Shown here: positions 3,673 through 16,656 of the stretch, piece by piece
Position numbering within the stretch: position 1 is the first letter of the stretch
How the letters are laid out: each line of letters starts with the position of its first letter
Source of the DNA: Thalassolituus maritimus
GTDB lineage: Bacteria > Pseudomonadota > Gammaproteobacteria > Pseudomonadales > Oceanobacteraceae
Direction: 5' to 3'
Assembly: GCF_900156675.1 (NCBI RefSeq)
Contig: NZ_FTOH01000003.1
Location: forward strand, 372,001-436,000
DNA length: 64,000 bases
Notes under the pieces: generated by a model
Told to the model about the DNA's origin: nothing
The model's database searches: none
The model's input: only the letters and a program-made list of their open reading frames with translations
Program-made: the position numbers and the translations under genes

Positions 3673-3771
3673 ATCCGTATCGGATACTGGCCCACTTGAC
3701 GCAATGTCGCTAAACTCGAGAGCGATGACGTCGGTTTGCGCCGCAGATAATTTCAGTGATTGGAGGTAGAG

Positions 3772-5451
3772 ATGAACGAACAGTTTTTCCAGGAGCGTTA
3801 CCCCGAGGGGTATCCAAAGACAGTCAACGTTAATGAGTTTTCGTGCATTACCGAAATCTTTGATGGTTTCGTTAAAAAGTACGCTGAACTTCCAGCGTTT
3901 ACATGTCTCGGGCAGACCATGACGTATGCCCAGCTGGATGAAAAAAGTGCTGCGTTCGCCTCTTTTCTTCAGAACGAAACGTCCCTTCAGGCAGGTGATC
4001 GTATTGCGGTTCAGCTGCCGAATGTACTGCAATACCCGGTCGTCGTATTTGGCGCGATGCGAGCTGGGATCATCGTTGTAAATACCAATCCTCTGTACAC
4101 CGAGCGCGAGATGGAGCACCAGTTTAACGACTCAGGTGCTAAAGCTCTGGTTGTGCTGGCTAACTTCGGTGACAAGGTGGAGCGTGTCGTTCCTAAAACA
4201 GGCATTAAGCATGTCATTGTAACAAACGTAGGTGACATGCATTGTCCGCTGAAAAGAACCCTGATCAATACAGTGCTTAAGTACGTGAAGAAGGAGGTGC
4301 CTGCAGCAAATATTCCTGGCGCGATTCCACTGCGCAAAGCACTCAGCAAAGGTAAGGGCAAGCCTTACACCAGCGCCCCCGCAACTTCTGATGATATCGC
4401 AGTACTGCAATATACGGGGGGCACTACAGGCGTCGCAAAAGGCGCAATGCTTACCCATGGCAACCTGATGGCCAACATGGCGCAAGCATACGGTGTATTC
4501 AAACAGGTTATGAATGAGGGGGAAGAGACGGTTATCTGTCCTCTGCCTCTGTATCATATTTATGCGTTCACCATGCATTGCATGGTGCTTCTGCAGACTG
4601 GTAATCACAGTATCCTGATCCCGAACCCCCGTGATATTCCTGGCTTTATTAAGACCCTGCAGAAAACAGACTTCACTGGATTTGTGGGGCTTAACACTCT
4701 TTTTGTGGCGCTCTGCGCTCAGGAAGATTTCCGTGCTCTGGACTTCAGCAAGCTCAAGCTGACTGTGTCAGGTGGTATGGCGCTGACCAAAGCTGCCTTT
4801 GATGAGTGGAAAGCGGTGACAGGGTGTGAAGTAGCCGAAGGTTACGGCATGACCGAAACCTCACCTGTTGTATCCTTTAACCCGACCACGCGCATCAAGC
4901 AGGGCACCATTGGAATGCCTGTTGCGAATACAGCCTGCATGGTGATCGACGAAGAAGGTAATGAGTTGCCCCTCGGAGAAGCTGGTGAACTGTGCGTGAA
5001 AGGACCTCAGGTCATGAAGGGCTACTGGCAGCGTCCTGAAGCGACTGAAGAAACAATGACCAAAGACGGGTGGTTGAAGACGGGTGACATGGCCGTTATC
5101 AACGACGATGGCTACCTAAAAATCGTCGACCGTAAGAAAGATATGATCATCGTCTCTGGCTTTAATGTCTATCCGAACGAAGTGGAGGACGTCATTGTTT
5201 CCCATAAAGACATTGTTGAAGCAGCTGCTATTGGTATACCAGACCCTAAAAGCTCTGAGGCCGTGAAAGTGTTTGTTGTCCGAAGCAACCCATCGCTCAC
5301 GGATAAAGATGTTATTGCCTTCTGTCGAGAGAATCTCACCGCGTACAAAGTGCCTAAGATCGTTGAGTTCCGTGACGAACTGCCGAAGACGAATGTTGGT
5401 AAGATCCTGCGTCGTGAGCTTCGTGACGAGGAGCTGGCCAAGCACAAATAA
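3772..5451 (+). CDS. fadD: Long-chain fatty acid--CoA ligase
   Basis: 559 residues, the usual FadD length. It activates imported fatty acids to acyl-CoA with ATP at the inner membrane. The AMP-binding P-loop YTGGTTGVAKGAML is near residue 212, the motif GYGMTETSP follows in the middle, and the C-terminal motifs GWLKTGDMA, DRKKDMIIVSGFNVYPNEVE and PKTNVGKILRREL (catalytic Lys) are intact. I chose the ATG at 3772 because GGAGG sits 5 bases upstream; a TTG 12 bases earlier is less likely. Single-gene unit flanked by terminators. Confidence 0.95.
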   Translation: MNEQFFQERYPEGYPKTVNVNEFSCITEIFDGFVKKYAELPAFTCLGQTMTYAQLDEKSAAFASFLQNETSLQAGDRIAVQLPNVLQYPVVVFGAMRAGIIVVNTNPLYTEREMEHQFNDSGAKALVVLANFGDKVERVVPKTGIKHVIVTNVGDMHCPLKRTLINTVLKYVKKEVPAANIPGAIPLRKALSKGKGKPYTSAPATSDDIAVLQYTGGTTGVAKGAMLTHGNLMANMAQAYGVFKQVMNEGEETVICPLPLYHIYAFTMHCMVLLQTGNHSILIPNPRDIPGFIKTLQKTDFTGFVGLNTLFVALCAQEDFRALDFSKLKLTVSGGMALTKAAFDEWKAVTGCEVAEGYGMTETSPVVSFNPTTRIKQGTIGMPVANTACMVIDEEGNELPLGEAGELCVKGPQVMKGYWQRPEATEETMTKDGWLKTGDMAVINDDGYLKIVDRKKDMIIVSGFNVYPNEVEDVIVSHKDIVEAAAIGIPDPKSSEAVKVFVVRSNPSLTDKDVIAFCRENLTAYKVPKIVEFRDELPKTNVGKILRRELRDEELAKHK

Positions 5452-5475
5452 GGCTTTGCGACGTGTTACACTGAG

Positions 5476-5503
5476 CGCCCCGGTTTCCGGGGCGTTTTTG
5501 TTT
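5476..5503 (+). terminator. Rho-independent terminator after fadD
   Basis: 8-bp GC stem (cgccccgg / ccggggcg), loop ttt, then tttttgttt. Confidence 0.88.
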
Positions 5504-5519
5504 CTGACTGGCGGGATAC

Positions 5520-8500
5520 ATGTCTAACGAAGTAACCAAGATGTTCTCTGAACTCGAAAAATCCCTGACGCATTGTCTTATCCGCGATCGGCACCCGGTC
5601 CGTAACGCACTTCGTCGCATTGAAAAAGAACCCCTTGATAAACAGCAAAAGCAGTTGGCTAAGCTGGTCTCCAGAATAGAAAAAAGTCAGCAAGCGGTTG
5701 CAGCCCGAAGTACTAATCCTGCACTTAATTACCCTGAAAACCTGCCTGTTTGTGAGAAGAGGTCAGAAATTCTGTCTCTGATTTCTGAAAATCAGGTGGT
5801 TGTCATTGCCGGTGAAACAGGTTCGGGTAAGACGACTCAGTTACCGAAAATGTGTATTGAAGCGGGGTTGGGTGTGTATGGACGGATTGGCCACACACAG
5901 CCGCGACGCCTTGCTGCGCGCTCAGTATCACAGCGAATAGCTGAGGAATTAAACAGCCCACTAGGTGAGACGGTGGGCTATCAGGTGAGGTTTACAGACC
6001 AGTCGAGCGATGACACCCGTATTAAGGTCATGACGGACGGTATTCTACTGGCTCAGACGCAGCACGACCGTTTCCTGAATGAGTACGACTGCATCATTAT
6101 CGATGAAGCACACGAGCGTAGCCTGAATATTGATTTTCTGATGGGTTACCTCAAGCAGTTACTGCCCAAGCGTCCTGACCTTAAGGTGATTATTACTTCT
6201 GCAACCATTGACGTTGAACGCTTCTCTCAGCACTTTGATGATGCACCGGTTATTCAGGTGTCGGGCCGGACGCATCCTGTTGATGTTCTTTATCGTCCGC
6301 TGGTTCGTAATGATGACGACGAGGAAGATCGCTCTTTATTTGAAGGGATAGCTGAGGCGCTCGAAGAATTGCGCTCAATCGACAAGGCTAAGGGTAGTCC
6401 GGGTGACACCCTGGTGTTTCTGCCCGGAGAGCGGGAAATCAGGGAATGTGCTGAATTCCTCAGACGTCAGCAATTGCCCGCGACTGATATTCTACCGCTG
6501 TATGCGCGGTTGAGTTCTGCTGATCAACAGAAAATATTTCGCCCTCATGGCGGGCGTCGCGTCGTGCTCAGTACCAATGTGGCTGAAACTTCGCTGACGG
6601 TTCCCGGTATTCGCTATGTTATCGACTCCGGTGTGGCGAGAATCAGTCGTTACAGCTACCGCACAAAAGTGCAGCGTCTGCCGGTTGAAGCGATTTCTCA
6701 GGCTAGTGCAAATCAAAGGGCAGGGCGTTGCGGCCGTATAGAGCCCGGAACCTGCATCCGACTTTATGAAGAGCAGGATTTTTTGTCGCGCTCAGAATTT
6801 ACCGATCCGGAAATTCGTCGAACTAATCTTGCAGCCGTGATACTGCAGATGTTGAATCTTCGCTTGGGTGACATCCGGAAATTCCCATTTGTTGATGCAC
6901 CTGACGATCGTTTTGTAAAAGACGGATATACACTGTTGTCCGAACTCGGTGCCGTCGATAACGCAAAAAAAATTACCAGCACGGGCAGGACCATGGCCCG
7001 GTTACCGGTCGATCCACGTATCGGGCGCATGTTGATTGCCGCAGGACAGAGAAATTGTGCGACTGAAATGATGGTTGTTGCCGCAGCCCTGACCGTTGCT
7101 GATCCAAGAGAAAGACCGCAGGAAAAACAACAGGCGGCTGCTGAAAAACACAGGCAATGGGCTGATGATGATTCCGACTTTGCAACGCTGATTAATCTCT
7201 GGAATGGCTTCGAAACACAGCGCCAGGAACTGAGTCAGAGCCAACTACGTAAGTGGTGTAAGAAAAATTATCTGTCTTATATGCGGATGCGCGAATGGCG
7301 GGATATTCATCGTCAGCTGCATCTGATGCTGCGTGATATGGATGTATCGACAAATTCCGAGCCTGCTTCTTATGAGGCGTTGCACAAAGCCATTCTCTCA
7401 GGGATGTTGAGTCATATCGGTTTCAGGGCAGAGCAGAAGGAATACATAGGTGCTCGTAACCGACGTTTCGTGATGGCGCCGGGGAGTGCCGGTTATAAGA
7501 AACCACCTAAGTGGTTGGTAGCAGCAGAATTAGTCGAGACCAGCAAGCTGTTTGCGCGCATGGTTGCCAGGGTGGAGCCCGAGTGGATTGAAGAATGTGG
7601 TCGGGAGTTACTTAAATATCAGTACTTCGAACCACATTGGCAACAGCAGCGAGGCCAGGTTGTGGCGACTGAGCAGTCTTCGCTGTACGGCCTGGTTGTA
7701 AACCCGAAAAAACGTGTCGATTATTCGAAAACTCACCCTGAAGAAAGTCGTCAGATTCTTATTACGGAAGCGCTGGTCGCGCAGCAGCTTAAATCTGATG
7801 TTGAATTTTATCGCAAAAACATTGAACTGATTGCAGAGGTCACTGAGTACGAAGAAAAGTCGCGCCGGCGTGATCTTGTCATTGATGATCATGCGCTGAT
7901 CGATTTTTACGAAAGATATTTTCCTGAAGGTGTTTTTTCCCGCAGAGCACTGGAAAGTTGGTTTAAACGTGCGTCAGACGCCGATAAAAGGCAATTGTAT
8001 CTTACTCGTGAATTTCTTCTGTCGGATGCCGCTCGCGGAATATCCAGTGAAGATTACCCCGCCGAGCTGGAAATTAATGGTATTAATTTTCCGTTGTCAT
8101 ACACCTTTGCGCCCGGAAGCCCCGACGATGGGGTGACCTTAACCGTTCCTGCTCAGATGCTGCCTCAGGTTAATGAAAGGCTGACAGAATGGCTGGTTCC
8201 GGGGTTTATTCACCAAAAAGTTGTAGCCATTATTAAAGCGTTGCCAAAGCCAGTGCGGAAGCAGTTTGTGCCTGTGCCAGATACGGCAACCCGCTTTCTG
8301 AATCAGGCTGCAGCTTCCAAAGGTGGACTCTATATCCAGCTGGCGGAATTTCTGAATCAGACATTAAGGCCCGAGCGCGTAACGCCAGAAGAGCTGATGA
8401 ATGATGCGATCGAGTCTCACTTGAAAATGAATTTCAGGGTTCTCAACGGCGATGATGTTATTGCCGAAAGCAGAGACCTGGCGGCACTAATTGAGATTGT

Positions 8501-9419
8501 TGGTGTAAGTGGTGAAACGTCTGAATACGTTCTTCTTGATGACCGGTTTGCCGGGCATACGGTGAATGACTGGGATTTTGGCGCATTGCCGGAGTCAACA
8601 GAGGCCGAAGTGGCCGGCTTGCCAGTGAGATCTTACCCATGCCTTAAGAGTGACGGCGATCAGGTAGTGCTGACAACCGAGAATAGTGAATCGCAGGCTG
8701 AGCTTTCGCACCGTGAAGGGGTATTAGCCTTGATTCGCCAGCGCCTTGCAGGAATGGATCGCGATCTGCGCCAAGCTATTCAGACCCAAATGAAGTCTCA
8801 CTGGCTTCTTGCTAAAGGGATGGGCTCTGAGAGTGAGATTACACGCGAGCTTGTTGATGCGGTGTATACCCATGTCATGCTGCCTCTTGATGAGGCTCTG
8901 CCGCGGACGCCTGAGGAATTTGATGTAAGAATTCAGCGGCGAAGCCGACTACATCAACATCTGGGGGAGTTGCTTACCCAGTTTGTTGAGTGGTTGAAGA
9001 TTCGACACGGTGTGCTGAAGAGTCTCAGGGGCGCCGTTACAATGGATAAAGCCATGGCATTCAGTGATACCAAAGCCCATCTGGAGCGCCTGTTGGCTCC
9101 GGGGTTTCTTGTCGAAGTTCCATGGTCAAGGTTGAAGTGTTTCACCCGCTATCTACGGGCTATGGAGTACCGGATTGATAAGTTGCAAGGGAACCTTGCC
9201 CGCGATCGTCAGTCCATGGTTGAGTTTGAGTCAGTCTATGTACCATGGAAAGAAGCGGTAGATCGCGGCAGCGCTAATAGAGAAGCACTTGAGGAGTTCC
9301 GGTGGCTGCTCGAGGAATGGCGTGTGTCCTTGTTTGCGCAACCGCTGGGTACACAAGAGCCAGTATCGCTCAAGCGGCTTAATAAGCGTTGGCAGGAAAT
9401 CGTCCAGGCGGGGCTGTGA
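5520..9419 (+). CDS. hrpA: ATP-dependent RNA helicase HrpA (DEAH box)
   Basis: 1299 residues, matching full-length HrpA. Walker A GETGSGKTT is at 98-106 and the DEAH box at 195-198, followed by SAT (motif III), the helicase C-terminal domain with NQRAGRCGR, HA2/OB-fold regions and the long HrpA-specific C-terminal region (DUF3418-type) ending in LNKRWQEIV. HrpA acts in ribosome rescue and mRNA handling. It is alone between a terminator and the hvf cassette, which starts about 140 bp downstream and seems to have its own expression signals. Confidence 0.95.
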   Translation: MSNEVTKMFSELEKSLTHCLIRDRHPVRNALRRIEKEPLDKQQKQLAKLVSRIEKSQQAVAARSTNPALNYPENLPVCEKRSEILSLISENQVVVIAGETGSGKTTQLPKMCIEAGLGVYGRIGHTQPRRLAARSVSQRIAEELNSPLGETVGYQVRFTDQSSDDTRIKVMTDGILLAQTQHDRFLNEYDCIIIDEAHERSLNIDFLMGYLKQLLPKRPDLKVIITSATIDVERFSQHFDDAPVIQVSGRTHPVDVLYRPLVRNDDDEEDRSLFEGIAEALEELRSIDKAKGSPGDTLVFLPGEREIRECAEFLRRQQLPATDILPLYARLSSADQQKIFRPHGGRRVVLSTNVAETSLTVPGIRYVIDSGVARISRYSYRTKVQRLPVEAISQASANQRAGRCGRIEPGTCIRLYEEQDFLSRSEFTDPEIRRTNLAAVILQMLNLRLGDIRKFPFVDAPDDRFVKDGYTLLSELGAVDNAKKITSTGRTMARLPVDPRIGRMLIAAGQRNCATEMMVVAAALTVADPRERPQEKQQAAAEKHRQWADDDSDFATLINLWNGFETQRQELSQSQLRKWCKKNYLSYMRMREWRDIHRQLHLMLRDMDVSTNSEPASYEALHKAILSGMLSHIGFRAEQKEYIGARNRRFVMAPGSAGYKKPPKWLVAAELVETSKLFARMVARVEPEWIEECGRELLKYQYFEPHWQQQRGQVVATEQSSLYGLVVNPKKRVDYSKTHPEESRQILITEALVAQQLKSDVEFYRKNIELIAEVTEYEEKSRRRDLVIDDHALIDFYERYFPEGVFSRRALESWFKRASDADKRQLYLTREFLLSDAARGISSEDYPAELEINGINFPLSYTFAPGSPDDGVTLTVPAQMLPQVNERLTEWLVPGFIHQKVVAIIKALPKPVRKQFVPVPDTATRFLNQAAASKGGLYIQLAEFLNQTLRPERVTPEELMNDAIESHLKMNFRVLNGDDVIAESRDLAALIEIVGVSGETSEYVLLDDRFAGHTVNDWDFGALPESTEAEVAGLPVRSYPCLKSDGDQVVLTTENSESQAELSHREGVLALIRQRLAGMDRDLRQAIQTQMKSHWLLAKGMGSESEITRELVDAVYTHVMLPLDEALPRTPEEFDVRIQRRSRLHQHLGELLTQFVEWLKIRHGVLKSLRGAVTMDKAMAFSDTKAHLERLLAPGFLVEVPWSRLKCFTRYLRAMEYRIDKLQGNLARDRQSMVEFESVYVPWKEAVDRGSANREALEEFRWLLEEWRVSLFAQPLGTQEPVSLKRLNKRWQEIVQAGL

Positions 9420-9556
9420 TCGTTTTACCGTGTGATTGGCTCAAAAAATGCGGTGTGGCAGAGAAAACGTCTGACATACTGAATCCAACCTGTGCTTTGG
9501 AACGTACAGGGAATAGATGGGCACGTTTTGCCCCTAACACTGAAAAGGAAACTGCT

Positions 9557-9892
9557 ATGAAAAACTCGACTAAAGATACTAACAAGCTCATGTCTGCTGT
9601 TCTGGGGACGGCGTTCGTAACTGCTGTGTCAGCAGTTGGTGTAAACGCAGCTGAGAACCCGTTTGCTTCTGCAGAACTGAATCAGGGTTACAAAGTGGCA
9701 GCCCACCATGAAGGTAAATGTGGCGAAGGTAAGTGCGGTGCTAAGGCCGACGAAGAAGGTAAGTGCGGCGAAGGCAAGTGCGGTGCTAAGTCTGAAAAAG
9801 AAGGCAAATGCGGCGAAGGTAAGTGCGGTGCTAAGTCTGAAAAAGAAGGCAAATGCGGCGAAGGTAAGTGCGGCGGTAAAAAAGAGAGCTGA
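9557..9892 (+). CDS. hvfA: HvfA-family RiPP precursor with eight EGKCG motifs
   Basis: 111 residues from the ATG preceded by AAAAGGAAA. An N-terminal signal peptide (cleavage likely after GVNA, residue 31) is followed by the ENPF motif common in this family, a short linker and four 15-residue repeats starting at Glu52. Each repeat holds two EGKCG motifs (eight Cys in total), spaced by AKADE or AKSEK. In characterised HvfA proteins a DUF692 (MNIO) iron enzyme converts EGKCG cysteines to oxazolone/thioamide groups that bind copper. The next two genes encode exactly those partners, so I infer a secreted, modified copper-binding peptide. Modification itself cannot be seen in DNA. Confidence 0.92.
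   Translation: MKNSTKDTNKLMSAVLGTAFVTAVSAVGVNAAENPFASAELNQGYKVAAHHEGKCGEGKCGAKADEEGKCGEGKCGAKSEKEGKCGEGKCGAKSEKEGKCGEGKCGGKKES
9710..9874 (+). repeat. 45-bp coding tandem repeats of hvfA
   Basis: Units begin at 9710, 9755, 9800 and 9845; the last is incomplete (30 bp). Each full unit encodes two EGKCG pentamers plus a five-residue spacer. Units 3 and 4 are identical over their first 29 bases, while unit 1 has diverged most in its spacer, suggesting recent duplication at the 3' end. Confidence 0.95.
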
Positions 9893-9900
9893 GCGCTGAT

Positions 9901-10767
9901 ATGAATCGCCACCAGATCACGGGCGCAGGATTAGGGCTGCGCCGAGGGTTTATCTCTGAATTGCAGTCCCGTATAGAAAACGGCGTTGAAATTCCCGTCG
10001 ATTTTTTTGAAGTCGCGCCCGAGAACTGGTTGCGGGTTGGCGGTCGTCTGGGCCGCCAGTTCCGCTATTTTACTGAGCGCTATCCGTTCGCTTGCCATGG
10101 GTTGTCGTTGTCTATTGGTAGTCCTGCTCCATTAGATGAAGCGTTCGTCCGTGATGTGAAAGGCTTTCTGGAAGAGCATAAGGTGGCGGTCTATAGCGAG
10201 CACCTGAGTTACTGCTCAGACGATGGCCATCTGTACGACCTTATGCCGCTTCCGTTTACCGAAGAAGCTGTCAAGTATGTCAGTGAGCGAATCATGAGAG
10301 TACAGGACATTCTTGGTGAGCGCCTCGTGATAGAAAATGTTTCGGCGTATGTTGAGCCTGGGCGCGAAATGGCAGAACCAGAATTCGTCAGGGCGGTGCT
10401 TGAAGCTGCCGACTGCGAGTTGCTCCTTGATGTGAATAACGTCTACGTTAATTCAACAAATCACGGGTACGACGCTGAAGAGTACATTCGCAGTATGCCG
10501 AGTGAAAAAATCCGGTATTACCATGTCGCAGGCCACTATCAGGATACATCCGACGCCAGTGATGATGATCCTTCCTCGAATTTGTTGGTAGACACCCACG
10601 GTGCAGATGTTATTGAGCCTGTCTGGGCACTACTATCAGCGGCTTATGATGCGCACGGGATGAGGCCAACGCTTCTGGAGCGGGATTTTAACTTTCCTGA
10701 TCTCGACGATATGTTTGCAGAGGTCTCACAGATTAAGGCCCTTCAGGAGGCACTGGTGCATGTCTGA
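9901..10767 (+). CDS. hvfB: HvfB-type multinuclear non-heme iron oxidase (DUF692/MNIO)
   Basis: 288 residues, TIM-barrel DUF692 family. Likely metal ligands lie in conserved motifs: HGLSLSIGS (66-74), SEHLSY (99-104), IENVSAY (144-150), LLLDVNNVYVN (174-184), YYHVAGH (206-212), DTHG (231-234) and LLERDFN (258-264). Family members such as MbnB and HvfB use an iron cluster and oxygen to rewrite cysteine side chains of peptide precursors. The ATG is 8 bp after the hvfA stop, so the genes are surely co-transcribed. The expected substrate is the EGKCG protein upstream. Confidence 0.93.
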   Translation: MNRHQITGAGLGLRRGFISELQSRIENGVEIPVDFFEVAPENWLRVGGRLGRQFRYFTERYPFACHGLSLSIGSPAPLDEAFVRDVKGFLEEHKVAVYSEHLSYCSDDGHLYDLMPLPFTEEAVKYVSERIMRVQDILGERLVIENVSAYVEPGREMAEPEFVRAVLEAADCELLLDVNNVYVNSTNHGYDAEEYIRSMPSEKIRYYHVAGHYQDTSDASDDDPSSNLLVDTHGADVIEPVWALLSAAYDAHGMRPTLLERDFNFPDLDDMFAEVSQIKALQEALVHV

Positions 10768-11482
10768 TCTGGCGAAGATGCAGCGTGCGTTCGCGAAAGA
10801 TATTCGCACTGATGGTGATGAAAGCTTCGGTGAACAGCCGGGCCTCAAAATTTATCGGGAGCTCTTTTTTAACAGTGTCTGTGGCTTTCTCGATGGTACT
10901 TTTCCTGTCTGTAAAGAGGCTGTCGGCGATGAGCGATGGAAGGAATATTCGCGGGCATTTTTTCGTGATCACCAGTCAAACTCTCCGCTTTTTCTCGAAA
11001 TAAGTGAGGAATTTCTGGCATGGTTGGTGACACAGCAAAGTATTCTTGGTGAGTTTCCATATCTGGCAGAGCTAGCTCACTATGAGTGGCTGGAGCTGGC
11101 CGTTGATGTGATGGATGTTGAAGGGTTCAGGGGGGAGCCTGATGGTCTCTTTGACCCAGACTCGCCAATTTTAATTAATCCTGCGTCGATTGCTGCGTGT
11201 TATCAGTACCCGGTTCATCAGGTGTCAGGGTTCGAACCTGAGGTCTCGGAGCAGATGTCGGGGTTTGTCGTTTATCGTGACCAGGCTGATAAAGTACGGT
11301 TTATCAGCTGCACCCCTTTGTCACTTATGATTCTCGAGACTGCACGCGCTGAACCGGCGCTAACTGCCCAGCAGGCCGTTGAGTCCGTTATGTCTCAGGC
11401 CGGCCTGGACGGAGAGGGTGCTCTTCAGGGGGCGCTGCAGGTTCTGGGTGACTGGCACCGGCAAGGTGTTATCCGTACGTGA
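10760..11482 (+). CDS. hvfC: HvfC-type partner protein (DUF2063)
   Basis: 240 residues from the ATG at 10760, which overlaps the end of hvfB by 8 bp. The N-terminal half is the DUF2063 domain (LAKMQRAFAKDI, YRELFFNSVCGFLDGTFPV, HYEWLELAVDV), called DNA-binding in databases but known from HvfC/MbnC-type systems as the subunit that binds the precursor leader and supports the MNIO enzyme. The C-terminal half resembles the RiPP-recognition fold of those partners. A longer upstream start would lie deep in hvfB and lacks support. No DoxX-like HvfD gene follows. Confidence 0.9.
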   Translation: MSDLAKMQRAFAKDIRTDGDESFGEQPGLKIYRELFFNSVCGFLDGTFPVCKEAVGDERWKEYSRAFFRDHQSNSPLFLEISEEFLAWLVTQQSILGEFPYLAELAHYEWLELAVDVMDVEGFRGEPDGLFDPDSPILINPASIAACYQYPVHQVSGFEPEVSEQMSGFVVYRDQADKVRFISCTPLSLMILETARAEPALTAQQAVESVMSQAGLDGEGALQGALQVLGDWHRQGVIRT

Positions 11483-11520
11483 AACAGTAAAAGCTGACGT
11501 TTTGGCTGGTTTCTGACATT

Positions 11521-12270
11521 ATGAGCGCAACAAAAACAGGACGTCATCTTATGTATTTTCATTCCCTTGTTGCGCTGATTGGAACGGTTGCCATTGGCCT
11601 CGCGGCGTTGCCTGCTCAGGCTGAAGAGGAGTACGATCCTTTTGAAAAAACCAATCGCAAAATTTTCGCCTTCAATGATTACCTGGATCGAAACTTCTTT
11701 GTGCCTGTAGCAAGGGGGTACAACGCGGTGACCCCTGTGGTGGTAGATACCGGCATTACGAATATGTATCAGAACGCCCTTGACCCTCTGACCAGTGCCA
11801 ATGATGTCGCGCAGCTTAAATTCTCTAGGGCAGCTACGGCCGTGGGTCGATTTCTGGTGAACAGTACGGTTGGATTTTTCGGCTTTTTCGATGTGGCGAC
11901 GCACATCGGTCTGCCAAAGCATCGTGAAGACTTCGGGCAGACTCTCGGTTACTGGGGGGTCGGCAATGGGCCTTATCTGGTATTGCCGTTCTTTGGGCCA
12001 CGTACCTTGCGTCATTCTGTAGGGCATGTCGGCGACTATTACACAGGCCTGTCGTATACCTATTTTGGCGACAATCTTGGTGAAGATGCTGCGATGTTGG
12101 GCTTAAAAGCGCTCGACCTTCGTTCGGATCTGATTGAATCTGAGCAGTTTATTACCGGCGACCGTTATCTCTTTATCCGTAGTGCGTATCTTCAGAGCCG
12201 CGAGTATCTGGTTAATGACGGTCAGGTGCAGGATGAGTTTGAAGATGAGTTTGGCATCTTCGATGAATGA
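11521..12270 (+). CDS. mlaA: MlaA/VacJ family phospholipid-transport protein, no lipobox
   Basis: 249 residues. Family motifs EEYDPFEKTNRKIFAFND, DPLTSANDVAQ, GFFGFFDVA, REDFGQTLGYWGVG, GPYLVLPFFGP and DLRSDLI are all present. MlaA sits in the outer membrane and removes misplaced phospholipids toward MlaC. The signal peptide ends in PAQA and is followed by Glu, not Cys, so this copy appears not to be lipidated. The ATG at 11521 gives Lys/Arg in the signal n-region; the ATG at 11551 has a better AGGAC ribosome site but no basic residue, so either may be used. It is 38 bp after hvfC. Confidence 0.93.
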   Translation: MSATKTGRHLMYFHSLVALIGTVAIGLAALPAQAEEEYDPFEKTNRKIFAFNDYLDRNFFVPVARGYNAVTPVVVDTGITNMYQNALDPLTSANDVAQLKFSRAATAVGRFLVNSTVGFFGFFDVATHIGLPKHREDFGQTLGYWGVGNGPYLVLPFFGPRTLRHSVGHVGDYYTGLSYTYFGDNLGEDAAMLGLKALDLRSDLIESEQFITGDRYLFIRSAYLQSREYLVNDGQVQDEFEDEFGIFDE

Positions 12271-12291
12271 CTATGGATTACGACAGATAAT

Positions 12292-12320
12292 AAAAAAGGC
12301 CTCGTGAGAGGCCTTTTTTG
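12292..12320. terminator. Bidirectional terminator between mlaA and the DAHP synthase gene
   Basis: 12-bp perfect inverted repeat (aaaaaaggcctc / gaggcctttttt) with loop gtga, serving both convergent genes. Confidence 0.92.
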
Positions 12321-12323
12321 TTT

Positions 12324-13631
12324 TTAGCCAGCCGTGCGCCCAGGGAGAACATCTTTCAGCTTCTCGCGCATTTTGCGGATTGCATCTTCAGTTTCTTCCC
12401 AGCTGATGCAGCCGTCTGTTACCGACAGGCCGTACTCCAGATCATCCAGGTTGGCTGGAATATTCTGACGCCCGTGCTTGATGTTTGATTCAACCATAAG
12501 ACCGATAATGGACTTGTTGCCTTCAAGGATTTGGTTGCTGACATTGTCCATGACCAATGGCTGCAGTGCCGGATTCTTGCTGCTGTTTTCATGGCTGCAG
12601 TCGATCATGATGTTCTGCGCAAGATCTGCTTTAGACAGTGCGTCTTCTGCAATCTGTACGTTCACTGAATCATAGTTCGGTTTACCGCCGCCGCCGCGCA
12701 GAACAACGTGAGCGTATGGGTTGCCCTTGGTGGAAACGATAGAAACCTGGCCGCTCTGGTTAATACCAAGGAAACGGTGCGGGTTGGCTACCGACATCAG
12801 TGCGTTCGTCGCGACCGTAAGGCTGCCATCGGTCCCGTTCTTGAAGCCGACGGCTGATGAGAGGCCAGAAGCCATCTCTCGGTGTGTCTGGGATTCTGTA
12901 GTGCGTGCGCCAATAGCTGACCATGCGATCAGATCCTGAAGGTACTGTGGTGAGATCGGGTCCAGCGCTTCAGTGGATAGTGGCAAGCCGAGCTCTGCAA
13001 GATCGATCAGAAGCCGGCGTGCGGTATGTAGGCCATCCTGAATCTTAAAGGTATCGTTCATGTACGGGTCGTTAATCAGCCCTTTCCAGCCAACGGTGGT
13101 GCGAGGTTTTTCGAAGTAAACGCGCATGACAAGGTAGAGGGTGTCGCTGACTTCTTCCGCCAGATCCCGTAAACGCTGAGCGTAGTCTTTAGCTGCATCC
13201 ACGTCGTGGATAGAACAGGGGCCGACCACAACAAAAATGCGGTGATCTTTACGATCCAGAATGTCGCGAATGGCCTGGCGGCCTTTGCAGACGCTTTCGA
13301 CGGCTTGCTCAGAGATAGGCATCTCTTCTTTGAGCTGAGTTGGAGTTACCAGAGTCGCGATGGACTCAATATTGAGATCTTCGATGCGATTGTCAGTCAT
13401 TTCCTGTTGGCCTTCAGACGGTTGGGCTGGTGTTGTCTCAGGTTGGGAGGGGGCTGAGCCTGCGGTCAGTTGCCCTTTGGTCAGGGCAGCAATTTGCTTC
13501 TGACGACCTGCTGGCGGCTCATCTCCCCATTGGGAGACCGCCGCAGCGGTCAGCTTCCAGCCGTCTTCAGAACAGGCTTCTGCAATGGCTTTTTTGGTTC
13601 CAAACCAGGCGACAACGTCAGTTGTTTTCAT
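12324..13631 (-). CDS. Class I DAHP synthase with N-terminal Cro-like HTH domain
   Basis: 435 residues in one frame. Residues 78-435 (from MTDNRIEDLN) are a complete AroF/G/H-type 3-deoxy-7-phosphoheptulonate synthase, the first shikimate-pathway enzyme: VVGPCSIHD, RVYFEKPRTTVGWKGLIND, MIDCSHENSSKNP, GLMVESNIKHG. Residues 1-55 look like a P22/lambda Cro-type helix-turn-helix (VVAWFGTKKAIAEAC, AAAVSQWGDEPPAGRQKQI), joined by a Pro/Gln/Glu linker (58-77). The outer ATG has no clear ribosome site; the inner ATG at 13400 has GAAGG about 10 bases before it, so a short form may also be made. Which DAHP synthase isozyme this is cannot be told. Confidence 0.9.
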   Translation of the reverse strand: MKTTDVVAWFGTKKAIAEACSEDGWKLTAAAVSQWGDEPPAGRQKQIAALTKGQLTAGSAPSQPETTPAQPSEGQQEMTDNRIEDLNIESIATLVTPTQLKEEMPISEQAVESVCKGRQAIRDILDRKDHRIFVVVGPCSIHDVDAAKDYAQRLRDLAEEVSDTLYLVMRVYFEKPRTTVGWKGLINDPYMNDTFKIQDGLHTARRLLIDLAELGLPLSTEALDPISPQYLQDLIAWSAIGARTTESQTHREMASGLSSAVGFKNGTDGSLTVATNALMSVANPHRFLGINQSGQVSIVSTKGNPYAHVVLRGGGGKPNYDSVNVQIAEDALSKADLAQNIMIDCSHENSSKNPALQPLVMDNVSNQILEGNKSIIGLMVESNIKHGRQNIPANLDDLEYGLSVTDGCISWEETEDAIRKMREKLKDVLPGRTAG

Positions 13632-14016: not shown

Positions 14017-14790
14017 TTACTGGAACATGTACCGTGCACCCATGAAAAGCAGGATGCTTGCAAGTGCAGGGCGCAGTATCGCGTCGGGAACCTTGCGGCT
14101 GATCATGCTTCCGAAGTGGATGGCTGGAATGGAGCCCAGAAGTAGTGCGCCTAGTAGTTGGAAGTCGACATTGCCAAGGCCGAGGTGGATAAGGCCGGCA
14201 GCGAGTGTCAGTGGAACTGCATGAGCGATATCGGTGCCGACGATGTGAGTGCCCCGGAGTGCAGGGTAGAGAATCATCAGGATGGCTGTACCAATAGCGC
14301 CAGCGCCGACAGACGAGAGTGTAACGAATATGCCGAGCAGGATACCCATGACGATAGTTGCGGCTGGTCTGAATCGACTCAGGTTGCGGGCGTTGCGGGC
14401 CGCCGCAAAGGCTTGAATGCGTGTTCTCATGAAAATAACGACGGCGGTCATGACCAGCATGATGCCGAGGGCGTTTTTCAGCAGGTGGCCGTAGTCTTCA
14501 GCGTCATTGAAGAACATGTGAAGAAGGGCGCCGGTAATCAGTGCGGCGGGTATTGAGCCTACGGCAAGAAGTTTGACCAGCCCCCAGTTGACGTGCTTTT
14601 GTCTGTGATGGCTATACGCTCCGCCGGCCTTCGTTAATGCCGCGTAGAGCAGATCGGTTCCGACAGCGGTATGCGCCGGGAAGCCAAAGCTGAGCAGTAG
14701 TGGCGTCATTAAGGCGCCGCCACCAATGCCCGTCATGCCTACGATAAAGCCGACGGCAGCGCCGGCACCGATATATAGCAGAAAATCCAT
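14017..14790 (-). CDS. Sulfite exporter TauE/SafE family membrane protein
   Basis: 257 residues with about eight hydrophobic helices. The family motifs are present: GFIVGMTGIGGGALMTPLLL near residue 14 and a second copy-like half, FVTLSSVGAGAIGTAILM. Members move sulfite, sulfonates or related anions across the inner membrane. It is divergent from cysB with about 130 bp between, so the sulfur regulator CysB may act on the shared region (inference). Confidence 0.88.
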   Translation of the reverse strand: MDFLLYIGAGAAVGFIVGMTGIGGGALMTPLLLSFGFPAHTAVGTDLLYAALTKAGGAYSHHRQKHVNWGLVKLLAVGSIPAALITGALLHMFFNDAEDYGHLLKNALGIMLVMTAVVIFMRTRIQAFAAARNARNLSRFRPAATIVMGILLGIFVTLSSVGAGAIGTAILMILYPALRGTHIVGTDIAHAVPLTLAAGLIHLGLGNVDFQLLGALLLGSIPAIHFGSMISRKVPDAILRPALASILLFMGARYMFQ

Positions 14791-14906
14791 CTGAGTCGTC
14801 TAATCTGGGTGCATATAGTACAGAATGCGACAATGTAGAGGTTGTCATCTATTCTGGAAAGGAATATTTGTTTATATTTTTATAACTTGAATCGCGTTTT
14901 CCGTAA

Positions 14907-15893
<987 letters not shown>

Positions 15894-15927
15894 TCGCAGC
15901 AGGGAGGCTTGATAGAAAGCGCTTGTT

Positions 15928-16656
15928 TCAGCCCTTTGAAATGATGTTGCCTGCGTGGAGTCCGCACTCTTTATGGGTTGCTTCTTCCCACCACCAGCGA
16001 CCTTCACGTTCGTGTTGGTTTGGCAGTGTGGCTCTGGTGCAGGGTTCGCAGCCGATGCTTACGAAGCCTTTCTGGTGAAGTTCGTTGTAGGGAACGTCGA
16101 ACATTTTGATGTATTCCCAGACCTGAGCTGAAGTCCAGTGAGCGAGTGGGTTGTATTTGGTGAGCGTTTCGCCCCGGCCTTTGAAGGCACTATCCAGTTC
16201 TATAATCGATACGTCTGATCGTGTGCCTGGGCTCTGGTCGCGACGTTGGCCGGTTATCCATGCGTCCAGTTCAGTCAGCTTGTTGCGGAGTGGGGCGATT
16301 TTACGAACGCCGCAGCACTCCTGGTGACCATCTTCATAAAAACTGAACAGGCCTTTCTCTTTAACGAATGCCTGCAGTGCAGCTTGCTCTGGAGTGCGGA
16401 CATCAATGTTGATGCCGTAGTGTTTACGTACCTTCTCTATAAATTGGTACGTCTCTGGGTGTAGTCGCCCAGTGTCCAGTGTGAAAATGTCTACCTCTGG
16501 GTTAATTTTTACTGCCATGTCGACCAGGATGACATCTTCCGCGCCGCTGAATGAAACGGCGATGGCGTCGTGGTTTTCAATGGCGTGACGAATGATGTCC
16601 TTTGGGCGTTTGTCTTCAAACTGAGTGTTCAGTTCTGCAATCTGGTCGTCTCTCAT
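15928..16656 (-). CDS. cysH: Iron-sulfur APS/PAPS reductase
   Basis: 242 residues. It reduces adenylyl sulfate (or its phospho form) to sulfite. The P-loop-like [13 protein letters not shown] and the pairs Cys114-Cys115 and Cys203-x-x-Cys206 match the four cluster ligands of assimilatory APS reductases (as in Pseudomonas), and Cys231 in ECGLH is the catalytic cysteine. E. coli-type PAPS reductases lack the four cluster cysteines, so an APS-using enzyme is favoured. It converges on cysB with 34 bp between. Confidence 0.94.

Follow-up and report, generated by a model that had tools for sequence, protein, structure and literature searches.

The hvfABC cassette of this Thalassolituus-like marine gammaproteobacterium most probably makes an EGKCG-type captophorin of the oxazolin type, and its HvfB and HvfC would also serve a second precursor, HvfA2, encoded elsewhere in the same genome; as the best explanation of the cassette as a whole, we hold this reading with good confidence. 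Considered alone, the cassette in the window (the whole stretch of 64,000 nucleotides analysed) is nothing unusual within a large class that has been characterised recently. What is new is the split, stress-linked and partly co-regulated two-locus arrangement, which was not found in print in the literature searched, while the cassette type itself is already known. To the more specific reading of a two-locus system, in which HvfBC handles both precursors, an ECF motif is common to the two loci of relatives, the window operon lies off that regulon and the behaviour of the Microbulbifer mmr operon is explained, we give somewhat better than even chances. By HvfB identity, the closest named loci are those of an Oceanospirillaceae MAG (88%) and a Thalassolituus MAG (73%), and the genus of the window organism (its own genome is G000) also includes G001 and G005.

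The features of the cassette and its flanks are as follows.
5520..9419, plus strand: flanking open reading frame for an hrpA-like helicase, which we take to be hrpA; a recurrent neighbour in relatives.
9454..9480, plus strand: putative ECF-like site that may have decayed, TGTGGCAG-N14-ATACT, aligned by eye.
9557..9892, plus strand: hvfA, the precursor gene, 111 aa; the ATG at 9557 is preceded by AAGGA, which resembles a ribosome site.
9656..9691, plus strand: conserved leader motif NPFASAELNQGY of HvfA, NPF..GY in relatives.
9710..9873, plus strand: tandem array of a 45-bp unit that encodes pairs of EGKCG, 3.6 copies with 91% matches.
9901..10767, plus strand: hvfB, gene of the MNIO (DUF692) maturase, 288 aa.
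10760..11482, plus strand: hvfC, gene of the DUF2063/RRE partner protein, 240 aa.
11521..12270, plus strand: flanking lipoprotein gene mlaA (PF04333, 232 bits); a recurrent neighbour in relatives.

The compact three-gene layout, with its 8-bp spacing and 8-bp overlap, had been proposed in a sequence-only reading of the same letters and is borne out by the coordinates of the open reading frames: 8 bp (9893-9900) separate the hvfA stop from the hvfB ATG, and 8 bp (10760-10767) are common to the ends of hvfB and hvfC. The mechanical list of open reading frames starts both hvfA and hvfC farther 5', at TTG. Since a pattern scan lists no terminator in the interval between hvfC and mlaA, the latter is possibly co-transcribed with hvfABC. 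A scan for sigma-70 promoters over window positions 9350-12400 gave one site, on the minus strand, against 2.1 expected. The gene hvfX (DoxX) is absent from the hvf slot of the window, which is thus not an H. influenzae-type operon. Farther downstream, positions 14017-16656 hold sulfur-metabolism-like frames, presumably related to a TauE/SafE permease, a CysB regulator and a CysH reductase; their nearness to an operon for a Cys peptide is probably a coincidence.

HvfA contains exactly eight EGKCG motifs, as counted in the sequence-only reading, starting at residues 52, 57, 67, 72, 82, 87, 97 and 102, and every one of its eight Cys residues falls within such a motif; 10,000 residue shuffles of the protein gave a mean of 0.006 motifs and a maximum of two. 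The protein passes the NF050137 domain model (83 bits, cut-off 19.5) and stays below the strict HvfA equivalog NF050188 (66 bits versus a cut-off of 95), while a Pfam scan of HvfA returned no match and therefore no DUF2282. By eye, its N-terminus has a basic start, a hydrophobic stretch and VNA-A, a putative Sec-type signal covering about residues 1-31. The leader motif NPFASAELNQGY is the probable recognition segment for HvfC and its RRE. Its core, NPF..GY, was found in 48 of the 63 precursor-bearing loci and was missing in the other 15 (80 loci from genome contigs were examined, 17 of them without a precursor by the rule used); it is also present in all eight orphan precursors inspected.

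HvfB belongs to the HvfB subfamily, with 417 bits on NF003818 (cut-off 360) and 337 bits on PF05114 (cut-off 25), and it matches the solved structure 3BWW (E=6.1e-66). HvfC scores 208 bits on NF050145 (cut-off 142), lies above the cut-offs of PF09836 and PF22106, matches the solved structure 3DEE (E=7e-10) and is a partner of PME type 1 (DUF2063/RRE). The profile search suggested earlier for the two enzyme families thus places PF05114, NF003818, PF09836 and NF050145 all above cut-off. The relation of HvfB to MbnB is real and weak (60 bits against a model cut-off of 325, with matches to the structures 7DZ9 and 7TCR), and HvfC is of the DUF2063 family, not that of the methanobactin partner. On the BufB model, HvfB reaches 262 bits and remains below the cut-off of 310.

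The metal ligands of HvfB, whose absence the sequence-only reading had named as telling against it, are conserved in the alignment. All 13 residues considered are present (H66, E100, H101, E145, N146, D177, N179, N180, H208, H212, D231, H233 and E260) and are near-invariant across 108 aligned rows, in which some loci are repeated. In the alignment with 3BWW, N179, D231 and H233 are the counterparts of the site-3 residues N175, D242 and H244, a mapping that takes the 3BWW numbering to run one below that of HvfB, from the D-x-H pair; the identical residue occurs in 108, 106 (with two gaps) and 108 of the 108 rows, respectively. Replacement of N175, D242 or H244 by Ala or Ser was reported to kill HvfB activity (PMC13419390). 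The ten remaining residues were chosen by recall and conservation.

As for the product, the sequence-only reading had expected oxazolone/thioamide groups on Cys, which were the first assignment for oxazolin, persist in the names of NCBIfam models and are repeated in Table 1 of PMC12452194. That expectation has been overtaken for three related EGKCG products. Indeed, fontiphorin, oxazolin and gonophorin, all made by MNIO-DUF2063 pairs, were reported to carry 5-thiooxazole on the basis of alkylation-assisted NMR/HMBC, which revised the oxazolin structure (PMC13097082), and the group behind the original oxazolone/thioamide proposal now reports thiooxazole too (PMC13419390). A methanobactin-like product with oxazolone/thioamide pairs would draw on the relation of HvfB to MbnB, which is real though weak; given this reassignment and the 417 bits of the window HvfB on the HvfB model versus 262 on BufB and 60 on MbnB, such a product is highly improbable here. 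The loss of 4 Da per Cys, put forward as a check in the sequence-only reading, fits both structures, which mass cannot separate. Because the EGKCG products of relatives carry 5-thiooxazole, the expected product of the window cassette would be a peptide with up to eight 5-thiooxazoles.

By analogy with the characterised relatives, from which the chemistry, the export and the copper binding are drawn, maturation of the captophorin could proceed as follows. HvfC (RRE/DUF2063) would grip the leader of HvfA and hand the precursor to HvfB, an iron-dependent MNIO that, with O2, would turn all eight Lys-Cys units into 5-thiooxazoles able to bind Cu(I), with 4 H removed per Cys and about 32 Da in total for HvfA. 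The signal peptide would take the modified HvfA to the periplasm, where it would hold copper, and the same HvfBC pair would most likely mature HvfA2, from another contig, as well.

The closest studied cassette is mmrABC of Microbulbifer, the source of bulbicupramide, whose HvfB is 59% identical to that of the window. The EGKCG core, for which a range of five to eight Cys has been described in Microbulbifer (PMC12538549), is common to the two, and so is, in M. variabilis (L142), the order hrpA-hvfABC-mlaA. The mmrABC product was reported to lose 4 H per Cys and to bind Cu(I) (PMC12538549). The fonABC cluster of Fontimonas thermophila is likewise a minimal A-B-C cluster with an EGKCG core, having seven sites rather than eight and no other gene; its product, fontiphorin, is described as a copper-binding 5-thiooxazole peptide, and the available part of the report describes no second locus (PMC13097082). 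In H. influenzae, hvfABCX encodes homologues of A, B and C and is also linked to an ECF sigma factor; the nontypeable strain described has six Cys in three AEGKCGEGKCG and HvfX within the operon (PMC13419390, PMC7907618), whereas the window genome has eight motifs, HvfX at another locus and a second precursor. Bufferin systems (BufABC with DoxX and DUF2282) resemble the window cassette in the MNIO with its DUF2063 partner, the Sec signal peptide (putative for the window HvfA) and the relation to copper, and differ in that the window precursor is of another family and HvfB is under the BufB cut-off. Methanobactin synthesis by MbnABC similarly involves an MNIO that acts on Cys together with a partner protein, but the sequences are distant, the partner belongs to another family, the heterocycle is a different one and the role is copper acquisition.

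The second precursor of the same genome lies on contig C13 (L033); it and the window HvfA are the two EGKCG precursors of this genome. HvfA2 has nine EGKCG motifs and the leader NPFASQSLESGY, and scores 78.5 bits on NF050188 (cut-off 95). Upstream of its gene are genes for an ECF sigma factor (226 bits on TIGR02943, cut-off 162) and for a zf-HC2 protein of 64 aa (32 bits against a cut-off of 22), which follows the ZAS pattern C-X25-H-X3-C-X2-C, with the spacing counted by hand; downstream is a genuine hvfX, at 229 bits (cut-off 80). In the 8.2 kb examined around hvfA2, no hvfBC was found. The idea of a stand-alone cassette without HvfX was therefore rejected, as the same genome carries HvfX on another contig, and the sequence-only description of an HvfABC-type copper RiPP cassette remains right as to type and falls short as to completeness, with HvfX and a second precursor at another locus. 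Efflux genes with a CusB-like domain adjoin the second locus in G000, G001 and G008, that is, in three of the 15 sigma/hvfX loci scanned. A third captophorin-type locus of the genome was noted on contig C18 (L034, G000:C18:404000-415000, about 3720-6211), with a DUF2282 bufferin precursor, BufB (312 bits, cut-off 310), a DoxX gene and a DUF2063-type partner that is weak on the HvfC model (26 vs 142 bits). The two MNIO genes and two DUF2063 genes found in the genome are the window pair and the bufferin pair.

The same split recurs among relatives, as examined in a family set of 44 genomes and an order sample of 116 genomes. In the family, HvfB is above cut-off in 35 genomes and an EGKCG match is found in 35; among the latter, G058 gave no match to HvfB and, being only 72% complete, was not counted as an orphan case. 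HvfX is above cut-off in 33 family genomes and exceeds 220 bits in 29, where it adjoins HvfB in 14, is unlinked with HvfB elsewhere in 14 and occurs without HvfB in one (G028). Orphan precursors were found in 13 genomes, with HvfX and a sigma match nearby in all 13. Within the family, orphans with HvfX and an ECF sigma gene occur in G000, G001, G002, G006, G008, G009, G010, G014 and G059, and the order sample added four further orphans in two other families (G065, G100 and G150; G112), again with HvfX and a sigma match, the latter being weak (61-72 bits); in three of these four, the precursor is divergent from hvfX. An unlinked hvfX with a sigma gene, and with no precursor found, is present in G003, G007, G024, G028 and G032, and neither a sigma gene nor a precursor was found beside the unlinked hvfX of G016. 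Across the order sample, all 43 genomes with an EGKCG match at E 1e-5 or better (of 116) have HvfB above cut-off, compared with 56 of 116 overall. Two apparent orphans, G036:C15 and G144:C57, were discarded as contig-edge artefacts, the helicase side ending one contig and hvfBC-mlaA beginning another. On contig C23 of G028 (L171), a genome that is 93% complete, an ECF sigma gene and a zf-HC2-like frame accompany HvfX, and no HvfB or EGKCG match was found in that genome; HvfX may have a role of its own.

Because orphan precursors sit with hvfX and a sigma gene while hvfBC is elsewhere, this gene content suggests that HvfBC probably matures precursors in trans. In G009, G010 and G100, the orphan is the sole EGKCG precursor found, and hvfBC lies near mlaA with no adjacent precursor found, the helicase directly adjoining hvfBC only in G100; modification in these genomes, if any, is therefore in trans. 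The G009 orphan (L151, 4047-4424) has core motifs that are mostly EGSCG or DGSCG, with two EGKCG left. The alternative that the two loci are independent, HvfA2 being left unmodified or modified by the bufferin pair of C18, is rather unlikely. It accords with the lack of linkage between HvfA2 and the window HvfBC, with the presence of a bufferin pair in the genome and with the proposal that unlinked precursors may go unmodified (PMC12452194), a source that has also raised the idea that an MNIO from another locus may modify an unlinked precursor. However, HvfA2 retains the leader motif and its nine EGKCG, hvfBC persists in G009, G010 and G100 where no adjacent precursor was found, and a single MNIO is above the PF05114 cut-off in seven of eight orphan-bearing genomes (G001, G002, G006, G008, G009, G010 and G014), G000 being the exception.

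In relatives, a promoter-like motif is seen at loci of both kinds. TGTAAGAA-N14/15-CGAC lies upstream in nine of the 15 family loci viewed that carry an orphan precursor or an unlinked hvfX, with a variant in five and none seen in G028, and it resembles the Caulobacter sigma-F element GTAACC-N16-CGAA reported for DUF2282-DUF692-DUF2063 operons (PMC3511200). Twelve sites from sigma or hvfX loci went into a model, the 15 loci viewed less the near-duplicates G008 and G032 and less G028, and the scan was compared with 200 mononucleotide shuffles per sequence. Of the 31 hvf(A)BC operons for which DNA was available, 13 are preceded by the motif at no more than 2% of the 200 shuffles (G007, G009, G010, G014, G016, G019, G023, G024, G032, G059, G065, G100 and M. 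variabilis), a scan that was not blind because the motif had been spotted by eye with the upstream sequences of both locus types visible; the start at which the G009 stretch was cut is approximate, and the M. variabilis stretch was cut at the start of the open reading frame rather than at the likelier Met. In M. variabilis, the ECF-like site is 98 bp before the mmrA start used, or about 194 bp before the likelier Met, and a lone hvfX on another contig has TGTAAGAG-N14-CGAC starting 52 bp before its frame; in the 9.5 kb examined there, neither a precursor nor a sigma gene was found. The window genome differs in that its hvfX is accompanied by a second precursor and a sigma gene and in lacking the motif before hvfA.

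Searched genome-wide, 13 genomes yield 35 matches to the exact pattern and 15 to a reversed control; 12 of the 35 lie at hvf promoters, the majority of which had served to define it. In four genomes from outside the family, a looser pattern matched eight times across 11 loci; four of these matches are at promoters of hvfX or hvf(A)BC, and the two loci of G112 gave none. A related form, TGTAACA-N-CGTC, precedes hvfX in G065 and G150, and it precedes hvf(A)BC in G065 and G100. G059 has nine exact matches versus none in the reversed control and may have a larger regulon. An exact TGTAAGAA-N14-CGAC at window positions 8924-8949 was rejected as a promoter, since it falls inside the coding region of the helicase gene, some 600 bp ahead of hvfA; it has counterparts in G001 and G008 and is read as chance or codon conservation.

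In the 220 bp scanned before the window operon, no significant motif is found (25% of shuffles are as good), the G001 hvf operon has it at 4% of shuffles, and of the eight hvfABC operons tested in the genus, that of G007 alone reaches the 2% level; in this species, joint control of the two loci is therefore unsupported. The possible decayed site at 9454..9480 was lined up with TGTAAGAG-N14-ATACT of G001 and TGTAACAG-N14-ATACT of G008. The lack of a significant ECF-like site before hvfA and of hvfX in the slot could mean that the window cassette is a relic losing its function, which we consider very unlikely: the three frames are open, the conserved residues and the repeat array are intact, and the near relatives G001 and G008 retain the same operon with eight and ten EGKCG, respectively, while the loss of one promoter motif may just mean a different promoter. 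We infer that the second locus would be under an RpoE2-type switch and that the window operon has left that regulon.

A regulon of this kind bears on the role of the product. In H. influenzae, HOCl induction of the operon of doxX, precursor, COG3220 and DUF2063 genes was reported to require RpoE2, which has a 67-aa ZAS anti-sigma (PMC7907618), and the second locus of the window genome likewise has an ECF sigma gene together with the 64-aa zf-HC2 protein. In Microbulbifer, copper addition did not raise the Mmr proteins, mmrABC being undetected with or without added copper, and the cassette gave no more than slight copper protection in E. coli (PMC12538549). The role might thus be in envelope oxidative (hypochlorite-like) stress, with copper binding as a consequence of thiooxazole chemistry; this is possible, if doubtful, as EGKCG products bind Cu(I) and CusB-like efflux genes adjoin the second locus in the three genomes mentioned, though in only that small part of the loci scanned. 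The oxidative-stress and copper roles may also coexist.

For the two-locus system, gene content suggests the following picture. HvfBC, whose genes lie with that of their own precursor in the interval from hrpA to mlaA, would also modify the distant HvfA2, whose locus would comprise the RpoE2-type ECF sigma factor, the ZAS anti-sigma and HvfX. Among relatives, and across more than one family, one ECF motif would be common to both loci and seems to drift in step, while in the window lineage the second substrate, induced by stress, would encounter a maturase made at a basal level. Points that weigh against the overall explanation are the score of HvfA below the strict equivalog, the lack of the ECF-like motif before hvfA, G028 and G058 with no HvfB match, and the behaviour of mmrABC in Microbulbifer and E. 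coli.

MNIO-DUF2063 clusters are reported for about half of Pseudomonadota reference genomes (PMC13097082), and their trigger and role are unsettled. The split layout indicates that precursor, maturase, HvfX and regulator need not adjoin, and cluster-based mining therefore misses some of these parts. G009, G010 and G100 are natural cases in point, since maturation there is in trans if it takes place at all. If true, an ECF regulon would provide a testable reason for the silence of the Microbulbifer mmr operon under copper.
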